A DNA stretch of 32,507 nt from Chloroflexota bacterium (GTDB lineage Bacteria; Chloroflexota; Dehalococcoidia; UBA2247; RBG-13-53-26). Position 1 is the stretch's first letter, and each line of letters starts with the position of its first letter. Under the pieces are notes generated by a model. It saw only the letters and a program-made list of their open reading frames with translations. It was not told the DNA's origin and did not search any database. Positions 7,130-29,167 of the stretch are shown here, one piece after another. The DNA lies in contig VGOE01000023.1 in assembly GCA_016876035.1 (NCBI GenBank), forward strand, positions 1-32,507. Direction: 5' to 3'. The translations under genes and the position numbers were made by a program.

Positions 7130-7180
7130 CTTAGCCCGAAATCGGCGATTGAGGGTTCAGTCTCGGCTGAAAGTCCGTAG

Positions 7181-7197
7181 GGTGGGCTCGGCCCACC
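7181..7197. repeat. Dispersed palindromic repeat, family A
   Basis: GGTGGGCTCGGCCCACC is a perfect 7-bp palindrome with a 3-nt loop, preceded by AGTCCGTAG. Related copies are at 11653-11674 (half), 26419-26436, 28070-28086, 28411-28427 and, diverged, 29211-29240. All are intergenic or at gene ends, as in REP-like families. Confidence 0.7.
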
Positions 7198-7232
7198 ACA
7201 TTCCTATACGAAGAAATCAGTCTATCTGGAAG

Positions 7233-11641: not shown

Positions 11642-11833
11642 CTAAGAAAGGGAGTCCGTAAGGTGGGCTCGGCCAGTCATTTTCCGCTTCGTAATTGGAT
11701 AACCTGACCCTGGACAAGTTATATGAGGCAAGCCTTTGTTTGGGCGCTTTGGTACTTTGGTTGCTTCTACGTTTACTTTTATTTCCATCCCACAATAGGG
11801 GCACTCTATTACTTTAGTATTTGCTTTGGCCAT
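11642..11833 (-). CDS. Small zinc-ribbon protein at the end of the R-M operon
   Basis: 63 residues. C11-P-Y-C14-G, H37 and C40 in an H-I-T-C-P-G-S-G-Y-P stretch form a likely C2HC zinc ribbon. Similar C-P-x-C-G ... C-P-G-S-G proteins are often small accessory or mobile-element genes of unknown function. AAGGGA lies 6 nt before ATG, and the gene starts 27 nt after the restriction gene on the same strand. The last dozen residues are encoded by the family A repeat (11653-11674), so the original C-terminus appears to have been replaced by repeat DNA. Confidence 0.6.
   Translation of the reverse strand: MAKANTKVIECPYCGMEIKVNVEATKVPKRPNKGLPHITCPGSGYPITKRKMTGRAHLTDSLS
11653..11674. repeat. Dispersed repeat family A, partial copy inside a gene end
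   Basis: AGTCCGTAAGGTGGGCTCGG with following CC matches the left arm and loop of the copy at 7172-7193 but lacks the right palindrome arm. It lies within the 3' end of the zinc-ribbon gene. Confidence 0.6.
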
Positions 11834-26418: not shown

Positions 26419-26436
26419 GGTGGGCCGAGCCCAACC
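26419..26436. repeat. Dispersed repeat family A, inverted copy
   Basis: The reverse complement reads GGTTGGGCTCGGCCCACC, one base different from the 7181-7197 palindrome plus one inserted base. It lies 50 bp after metF, where it could also act as a transcript 3' end. The rest of 26371-26499 holds no gene I can support. Confidence 0.65.
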
Positions 26437-26499
26437 TACTGAGCTCAAGTACCTGAAGAGGTAGTATGCAATAGATGCAAGTAAACGGGCATAGAAGAG

Positions 26500-26585
26500 T
26501 TACTAGAAGTCTCAAAATAGAATGGTCTCATTTTAATGCGGGGCAAAGCAAAACGGTGCATCAGACTATTATGAGACCATTAGTA
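26500..26585 (+). mobile_element. MITE-like element, left copy of a perfect inverted repeat
   Basis: These 86 bases are identical to the reverse complement of 27940-28025. The element has its own imperfect terminal repeats: the first 20 bases after 26500 (TACTAGAAGTCTCAAAATAG) and the reverse complement of the last 20 (TACTAATGGTCTCATAATAG) agree at 16 of 20 positions. Both ends carry TA, as expected for IS630/Tc1-mariner-type target duplication. The motif GTCTCA occurs three times. No transposase is encoded, so any movement would be in trans. Confidence 0.75.
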
Positions 26586-26630
26586 TCTCATACACCACAA
26601 CGAATCTGAGAAGGAGCTGACATAGAGAAA

Positions 26631-27797
26631 ATGGGGCTGGCGCTTGATGGCGTAAAGATAATGAATATGTGCTGGACCGGCCCTGGTGCTTTTTGCACTG
26701 AGATGCTGAGTGACCTGGGTGCTGATGTAATCAGAATCTCCGATGTCAATCCGGAGACCCATGGTGCGCTAACCATGATGGTGTTCAGTGACTATCCAGG
26801 TCTGCGCAACTGTCGGACATTCGGCGTCAATCTGAAAACGGAGGCGGGTAGAGAGGTCTATAAGGACTTGGCGAAGAGCGCCGATGTTGTGATGGAAGGA
26901 TTCCGCCCCGGTGTGGTCAAGCTCCTGGGTATTGACTACGAGACTATTAAGGGAATCAACCCGCGCATCGTCTATACGTCCTTGTCTGGCTATGGGCAGG
27001 ATGGACCCTACCGGGACATAGTTGGGCATGAATTGAACTATTTGGCGATCAGTGGTCTTCTGGAGTTGACCGGGCCGAAGGGTGGGATGCCTGCCATACC
27101 GGGCGCAGTTGTTGCTGATTGGTGTGGGGGTATGTCCGCCGGAGTGGGCATTTTGGCGGCGCTCATGGCGCGGGAGCGAACGGGGGAGGGCCACTTCTTG
27201 GATGTTTCCATCACAGACGCTATAACTGAAGTGACATCCATGCAGACAAACCCCTATCTCTACAAACGCGGAACAGTCCCAAAGAGAGGCGAGACTATTT
27301 GGAACGGGAAGTATCCCTGGTACAACGTCTATGAGACAAAGGACAAGAAGCATATTACCATTGCCACGCTTGAGCCGAAGTTTTTCGCTAACCTGTGCCG
27401 GCTTCTGGGCTGTGAGGAGTTCATCCCGCATCAGTTCGACGAGGGAGAGAAGCGGGATGAGATATCCAAATTCTTTACGGAGAAATTTCAGACTAAGACG
27501 CGGGGTGAGTGGGCAGCACTGCTGATGTATGCCGATACATGTTTTGCGCCAGTTCTGGGTATTGATGAGGTGGAATTCGATCCCCAATTGATTGCGCGGC
27601 AGATGATACTGGAATCTGATCATCCCGCCGCAGGCCGGCTGAAGCAGATTGGCTCAATGCATAAGCTCAGTGATTCCCCCGTAGAGGTGAGGAACTGGGC
27701 TACCAGTTTTGGGCAGCACACCAATGAGATTCTACGTGAGATAGGTTACACCGATAACCGTATCAGTGAACTGCGAGAAATAGGAGCGGTTGGTTGA
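26631..27797 (+). CDS. Family III CoA-transferase / racemase-like (CaiB/BaiF)
   Basis: 388 residues. Signatures include L-D-L/S-D-L-G-A-D-V-I-R-I, V-N-L-K-T-E-A-G-R-E, E-G-F-R-P-G-V-V-K-L-L-G-I-D-Y and S-G-Y-G-Q-D-G-P-Y. H133 (G-H-E-L-N-Y-L-A) and D163 (V-A-D-W-C-G-G) have the same 30-residue spacing as His126/Asp156 of alpha-methylacyl-CoA racemase, so an epimerase-type role is possible. The position after the His is Glu where many racemases have Asp. AAGGAG (26611-26616) is 14 nt from ATG 26631, rather far. The gene with its flanks is framed by the two MITE-like copies, an unusual cassette. Confidence 0.88.
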   Translation: MGLALDGVKIMNMCWTGPGAFCTEMLSDLGADVIRISDVNPETHGALTMMVFSDYPGLRNCRTFGVNLKTEAGREVYKDLAKSADVVMEGFRPGVVKLLGIDYETIKGINPRIVYTSLSGYGQDGPYRDIVGHELNYLAISGLLELTGPKGGMPAIPGAVVADWCGGMSAGVGILAALMARERTGEGHFLDVSITDAITEVTSMQTNPYLYKRGTVPKRGETIWNGKYPWYNVYETKDKKHITIATLEPKFFANLCRLLGCEEFIPHQFDEGEKRDEISKFFTEKFQTKTRGEWAALLMYADTCFAPVLGIDEVEFDPQLIARQMILESDHPAAGRLKQIGSMHKLSDSPVEVRNWATSFGQHTNEILREIGYTDNRISELREIGAVG

Positions 27798-27939
27798 TGG
27801 CACCGACCTTGACCATTGTGCAGCCAGACCTCAGAAGGTAGATATTTGTAAAGCTTTTCTGGAATAATGCCTTAATGTTGTTTCTCAGGTCAATTTGGCT
27901 ACCCTTTATCACCTTAATGTTCCACCAACTTCCTCGAGT

Positions 27940-28025
27940 TACTAATGGTCTCATAATAGTCTGATGCACCGTTTTGCTTTGCCCCGCATTAAAATGAGAC
28001 CATTCTATTTTGAGACTTCTAGTAA
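27940..28025 (-). mobile_element. MITE-like element, right copy of a perfect inverted repeat
   Basis: Exact reverse complement of 26500-26585 over 86 bases. The 1354 bp between the copies hold one complete gene (26631-27797). Both copies are preceded on their outer left side by GAGT. Identity of a non-coding repeat suggests recent duplication or ongoing gene conversion, and inverted orientation would allow inversion of the gene by recombination. Confidence 0.75.
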
Positions 28026-28453
28026 TTGACTGACGACACTCGGGTGCGCTACTGTTGATAGCCAGGCATGGTGGGCAGAGCCCACCGATCCAGTCAGCAG
28101 GCCAACCTACCCCTACTTACCTTTCTCTCCCCCCACCTTCTTCCGGGGTGTATCCGGGTGGTGGGTTTCGCTGCGCTACACCCACCCTACGACTGCTACT
28201 ACCCTGCTTGTGTTGTTATTGCGATCCTTCCCAATGGGAAGGACGCCGTAGGCGATCACGGCAATCCCAGGGCGGTGGGACACCACCCTATCTCCAGGTG
28301 CCGGTCAGGTCCCTGACCTGACGGGGTTATCGGGAACCGACCAAGTGTGCCTATTTCCAGCCGGCACGACAGACAGAAGATGCAAACGGGCGCACGCAGC
28401 CAAGGAAATTGGTGGGCCAAGCCCACCCTACTTCTGGCTGGATTTTTCTAGTA
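28026..28453. repeat. Cluster of short palindromic repeats, no gene
   Basis: This 430-bp gap is nearly all repeat. It contains family A at 28070-28086 (GGTGGGCAGAGCCCACC) and 28411-28427 (GGTGGGCCAAGCCCACC). A related GGTGGGTTT...ACCCACCCTAC unit lies at 28160-28190. Family B lies at 28215-28268 with an internal CCTTCCC/GGGAAGG hairpin. A further hairpin pairs GTCAGGT (28304-28310) with ACCTGAC (28316-28322). I see no coding sequence or T-tract terminator. Confidence 0.7.
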
Positions 28454-29167
28454 TTAACCGAGCGATGCCCATTGCGCAAGGGTTTCCGATGAGGGAAGTT
28501 TAACCTTCCGTGTCTCGGTAACCCAGATATACTCGTTGACAAGTGCCAGCACTGTAGAATCTGGTCGCCCCAGTTTGTTGGGAAGGTCGTCAACTTGGAA
28601 GCCTTTGTCCCTGCATAGGTTCCCGATGTGTGAAGTAAAGTCTCTGATTTCCCTTAGATATTTGAAGTATGATTCAAAACTACCATCACATTCGAAGCTA
28701 GTTCGCATTGCGTTATCCCAAGGCATCAATGCTTTCGGCCTGATGGCGTAGAGGATCTTAGAGGCTGCAGTTGGGCCAATATGAACCTCCTGTTGGCTGC
28801 GGCCGTGAACACGCCAAGCCCCCGTCTTGTCCTTAAGAGAACCATATGCACGAGCGGCTACTTTCAGCTCACCATCCCCCAGGTCCCAGAGAGGTTTCTC
28901 TCTCGCAAATAAACTGGCCCCTTCTACCCGGTACCAGTTCAAGATACTTTTTGCCGCAACATCATGTTGATCCTCTGGAAGATGCCTGCATCCCCAATCA
29001 TTTAGCCATTTCATGAGACGACAGCAATGCCTGGAATTCCTCAGGTCTATGCTACCGCCCGTATCATCGTTCAAACCTTTGAGCGAGCTATTGAAAGGCG
29101 TAAGGGAATTGTACATGGTACTGGCAACAGCCAGCTTAGCTAGTGTCACACTCTGGCAATTCAGCAC
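28454..29167 (-). CDS. Hypothetical protein with ASK...WDNAMR motif
   Basis: 237 residues from GTG 29167; GTG at residue 7 and ATG at residue 18 are alternatives, none with a good ribosome binding site. The function is not recognised. The middle holds the clearest conserved-looking block, G-P-T-A-A-S-K-I-L-Y-A-I-R-P-K-A-L-M-P-W-D and N-A-M-R, seen in uncharacterised bacterial proteins. The N-terminal part is rich in Cys and Trp (C-C-R-L-M-K-W-L-N-D-W-G-C). There is no signal or membrane segment. It is isolated between repeat clusters, so acquisition is possible. Confidence 0.55.
   Translation of the reverse strand: MLNCQSVTLAKLAVASTMYNSLTPFNSSLKGLNDDTGGSIDLRNSRHCCRLMKWLNDWGCRHLPEDQHDVAAKSILNWYRVEGASLFAREKPLWDLGDGELKVAARAYGSLKDKTGAWRVHGRSQQEVHIGPTAASKILYAIRPKALMPWDNAMRTSFECDGSFESYFKYLREIRDFTSHIGNLCRDKGFQVDDLPNKLGRPDSTVLALVNEYIWVTETRKVKLPSSETLAQWASLG

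Follow-up and report, generated by a model that had tools for sequence, protein, structure and literature searches.

A CoA-transferase gene in a Dehalococcoidia genome lies between two inverted copies of a miniature inverted-repeat element (MITE), and this arrangement raises the question of whether the pair renders the gene mobile or switchable, as the initial annotation had proposed, or whether the gene merely stands between two separate insertions. The window, i.e., the whole 32,507 nt stretch of DNA that was analyzed, carries the following features around the gene, two of which are defined by comparison with a related genome, G006:

26448..26502, + strand: flank outside the left MITE, homologous to the leader that the CoA-transferase gene natively has in G006; left half of an empty site
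26501..26585, - strand: left MITE plus its flanking TA dinucleotides (element proper 26503-26583); its double-GTCTCA end points outward (left)
26586..26630, + strand: remaining CoA-transferase leader; right half of the empty site, G006 homology resuming exactly at 26586
26631..27797, + strand: CoA-transferase family III gene (388 aa; PF02515, E 3e-86); the sole gene between the MITEs
27880..27941, no strand assigned: IS21-type terminal repeat relic, the third unit of which is interrupted by the right MITE and resumes at 28025-28030 (ATTGAC)
27940..28024, + strand: right MITE plus its flanking TA dinucleotides (element proper 27942-28022); same sequence as the left copy, in inverse orientation

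Positions 26500-26585 match the reverse complement of 27940-28025 at all 86 bases, and the match ends exactly there on both sides, confirming the perfect 86 bp inverted repeats of the initial annotation. An ungapped repeat search of the whole window returned the two MITE copies as its longest inverted pair (90 nt, 99%). While the annotated identity stands, the annotated size of the element does not, as the base at 26500/28025 is flanking sequence that matches by chance and lies outside the element, which is thus one base shorter: 85 bp including the flanking TA, or 81 bp for the element proper. The remaining anatomical details had been correctly noted. Read from the TA at 26501, the termini agree at 16 of 20 bases; GTCTCA occurs three times per copy, twice on one strand and once on the opposite strand; and TA is found at both ends of the left (26501-26502 and 26584-26585) and right (27940-27941 and 28023-28024) copies. 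Within the window, the end motif occurs only in these two copies, and none of 100 shuffled sequences gave two matches. The interior, enclosed by the terminal inverted repeats, contains no transposase gene and has no coding capacity. An RNA hairpin is predicted for the element (z -3.9) because of its inverted repeats, and since the family alignment has no two-sided compensatory change at any pair, this hairpin cannot be taken as a sign of an RNA function; a comparison of the MITE with Rfam gave no match.

Counting copies of the repeat in the host and its relatives, as the initial annotation had suggested, revealed nine in the host and a family dispersed among other Dehalococcoidia, Lentisphaerae and Nitrospirae. 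The host genome is an assembly of 159 contigs, in which a DNA search found four copies (the window pair, one on contig C80 and one at C1:15946, the latter two at 84% identity), and an end-based pattern added C1:39579-39664, C7:46671-46764, C1:1533-1626 and C1:3117-3210. A covariance model brought the total to nine, including a diverged copy on C36, and found none in 15 relatives. At least two types can be recognized among the nine, one of 85 bp (the window pair, C80 and C1:15946) and one of 94 bp (C7, C1:1533 and C1:3117), with the copies at C1:39579 and on C36 more distant from both. TA is present at both ends in nearly all of them. Across the class, exact MITE ends were detected in 8 of 393 genomes, and a scan of public genomes returned 67 stretches, mainly from Dehalococcoidia/Chloroflexi and Lentisphaerae. 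In one metagenome-assembled genome (G071/JACQTY01; loci L044, L055, L060 and L069), many contigs stop inside or just past a longer MITE with the same type of end, so the family is abundant in that genome and breaks its assembly.

An autonomous relative with the same ends was located in another Dehalococcoidia MAG (L059:2244-3355). The element is 1.11 kb long, and its ORF is that of an IS630-type transposase by domain make-up (DDE_3, 4e-33, together with HTH_29, HTH_32 and HTH_33). At one terminus, GTCTC boxes lie at positions 9 and 25, the second box being 16 bp inside the first, and this spacing recurs at the equivalent terminus of all MITEs tested; a second box is missing from the opposite terminus. 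Because of the shared ends and box spacing, the MITE appears to have arisen from this type of IS630 element by internal deletion. Several contigs of the Lentisphaerae genome GWF2_49_21 stop just inside such an end, within what reads as the beginning of a transposase gene of this kind. A transposase with matching ends, which the initial annotation had suggested looking for, was found in L059, but not in the 159 pieces of the host assembly, where the L059 transposase as query gave no matches. Two PF13358 matches in the host were considered and rejected, one on C18 that belongs to the IS630 family but has no matching ends nearby, and one on C30 that is broken. Because the family is dispersed, both window copies end in TA on either side and an autonomous IS630-family element shares their termini, the view that each copy is a complete non-autonomous element holds. 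A literature search returned no paper in which Dehalococcoidia and miniature inverted-repeat elements are both named, and the present analysis adds an IS630-derived MITE family that is common to Dehalococcoidia and some Lentisphaerae and Nitrospirae, along with its autonomous partner.

The history of the left copy can be read from G006, one of only two genomes with close orthologues of the CoA-transferase (92% identical in G006 and 87% in G001). DNA homology between the host and G006 is 88.7% over 26586-27802, and starts at the first base past the left MITE. When the MITE and one TA are removed, 26448-26502 aligns directly upstream in G006 with a local score of 34, compared to a maximum of 31 in 1000 shuffles, and the junction reads GAGTTG|TCTC in G006 versus GAGTTA[MITE]TCTC in the host. 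The empty site was seen by excising the element and then aligning the two sequences, as a three-way MAFFT alignment had smeared the 83 bp insertion over gaps. The site in G006 reads TG rather than TA, and requires one substitution. The evidence for this empty site is strong, and the comparison indicates that the left MITE entered the leader of the CoA-transferase gene itself, and did so alone. The adjacent MTHFR gene is only 77-78% identical to that of G006, compared to 92% for the CoA-transferase, and such a difference may reflect either transfer or strong constraint.

At the right end, a query with the right-hand region found a 62 bp match in G048 that, when followed further, continues through the insertion point, the window reading CTCGAGTTA[MITE]ATTGAC and G048 CTCAAGTTAATTGAC. 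The match in G048 consists of three similar units in a row adjoining istB (PF01695, E 4e-63), which identifies them as the terminal repeats of an element of the IS21 family. The rejoined third unit scores 28 against 16 for the MITE-filled sequence, and past ATTGAC the right outer flank aligns weakly to G048, with 74 of 2000 shuffles as good. Of the TA expected at empty sites, the right one in G048 is present, in contrast to the TG at the left site in G006. The evidence for the right empty site is fair, and the alignment suggests that the right MITE split a relic of an IS21-family end, a target unrelated to the left one. Beyond this site, parts of the non-coding region 28080-28390 recur at 78-92% identity on C15 (8380-8501, 12189-12336 and 12896-12960), and short matches to about 28157-28200 recur across many genomes of the class. 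A dispersed repeat of the type GTAGGGTGGGC(T)CGGCCCACC is found in the window at 7172-7204, 11653-11685, 26419-26442 and 28403-28431. No orthologues of the downstream gene (28454-29167), by which the right insertion might have been dated, were detected in 40 relatives.

The history that in all probability applies is that two copies of one IS630-derived MITE inserted separately, and that the CoA-transferase gene is a bystander. The MITE would have arisen from the termini of an insertion sequence of the IS630 family, and its two copies would have inserted at TA sites about 1.4 kb apart, the left one into the CoA-transferase leader, about 45 bp before the start codon, and the right one into the IS21-family end relic downstream of the gene. 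An IS630-type transposase supplied in trans would recognize the TACTARNNGTCTCATAATA ends and act by cut-and-paste. The two window copies are identical because they probably stem from a recent and immediate common source, given that no other copy in the host comes closer to them than 83-84% identity, and the simplest account is that one copy could be a local hop of the other to a nearby TA. We infer both the trans supply and the local hop, the former because no cognate transposase was found in the host.

The initial annotation had observed that the pair encloses exactly one metabolic gene, which is correct (26631-27797), and that it could move this gene as a cassette. A trans-acting IS630 transposase would then use the outer MITE ends to carry the CoA-transferase gene as a 1.5 kb unit, and several observations are in keeping with this: identical inverted MITEs about 1.4 kb apart bracket a single gene, the neighbors of that gene differ among the host (G000), G001 and G006, and the same layout is known for Tn3-derived MITEs (TIME-COMPs, PMC13367494). 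Such a history is nevertheless very unlikely, because a composite hop would have placed foreign DNA at 26500, where the native leader is found; with native sequence still outside the left copy, joint movement of the pair after that copy's insertion can be discounted. The right copy, for its part, splits an unrelated IS21-type repeat. Both G006 and G001 lack a MITE at the gene, although the gene sits elsewhere in those genomes. The limits of the homologous CoA-transferase unit (about 26448-27807) do not coincide with the MITEs, as homology to G006 and G001 stops about 10 bp past the stop codon, leaving the right MITE outside, about 135 bp beyond its end. In addition, a 2 bp TA duplication cannot mark a composite hop, and no close MITE pairs were seen at the other loci examined.

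A second inverted MITE pair around one gene, in this case for a Peripla_BP_6 protein, was observed at C1:1533-3210 (L025 of G000). The copies of this pair are 91.5% alike (eight differences), and C1:3117 is nearer to the C7 copy (four differences), so the C1 pair is not a simple local duplication. With eight copies, the probability of two MITE pairs within 1.7 kb arising by chance is about 7e-4, and their placement is non-random. That two close pairs exceed chance weighs against separate insertions placed at random; local hopping would account for the window pair, but the two members of the C1 pair are not most closely related to one another. It is very unlikely that a trans-acting IS630 transposase is able to mobilize MITE pairs of this kind, in the window or at C1:1533-3210, as transposase-free composites. 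The Peripla_BP_6 protein (L025:1729-3054) has 32 matches in the host at E below 1e-60, compared to 0-2 in each of 40 relatives, and this family has undergone a large lineage-specific expansion in the host.

An artefact, in which the repeat was duplicated or misjoined in a metagenome-assembled contig, has to be considered for a genome in 159 fragments, as repeats this long can confuse assembly, but it too has very little chance of being correct, given that an independent genome (G006) has the same order of sequences across the left junction, an IS21-type end repeat can be followed through the insertion point at the right junction, and the flanks of the two copies differ. Least credible is the proposal that recombination between the MITEs inverts the CoA-transferase gene and so alters its promoter context, for although inverted repeats of 90 bp and 99% identity, 1.35 kb apart, could recombine in principle, inversion would have broken the adjacency of leader and gene, which is intact relative to G006 and makes the present orientation the ancestral one, while neither a recombinase gene nor a recombinase site was identified beside the repeats, and outward promoter-like matches from the MITEs are at chance level (2 found versus 1.9 expected). 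A mobile or switchable metabolic gene is, accordingly, not supported.

The MITE in the window is IS630-derived and of a known kind, and its nearest known counterpart is RUP of Streptococcus pneumoniae, a non-autonomous element of 107 bp with a TA target and IS630-Spn1-like ends, on which the IS is presumed to act in trans (PMC2229807). Both are short and non-autonomous, with TA and IS630-family ends, and RUP, present in 108 copies alongside its IS in the same genome, is often inserted in other IS elements (PMC2229807). The sequences are unrelated, and in place of 108 copies and its own IS, the family described here has nine copies in the host, where the search for a matching transposase gave none.

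The Correia/NEMIS elements of Neisseria are far more abundant than the family described here, and differ from it in sequence and in host. They are about 107-155 bp long, with TIRs, TA termini and hairpin-forming transcripts (PMC2229807). Closer in layout are the Tn3-derived TIME-COMP/IMU units, in which two inverted MITEs surround a passenger gene without an internal transposase (PMC13367494), but these have Tn3 IRs and 5 bp repeats rather than IS630-type ends and TA, and joint movement is unsupported for the window pair, against which the native left flank argues. In Acinetobacter, identical 439 bp MITEs lie at both ends of a class 1 integron segment that is suspected to move as a unit (PMC3934969); target repeats flank that unit as a whole, whereas each copy in the window has its own empty site. 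Both TIME-COMP (PMC13367494) and Acinetobacter (PMC3934969) units were recognized by target repeats that lie outside the unit as a whole, and the window pair shows the opposite. The layout of this pair is that of a composite, but its history is not, and a single empty site at an orthologous locus is enough to tell whether two MITEs form a cassette.
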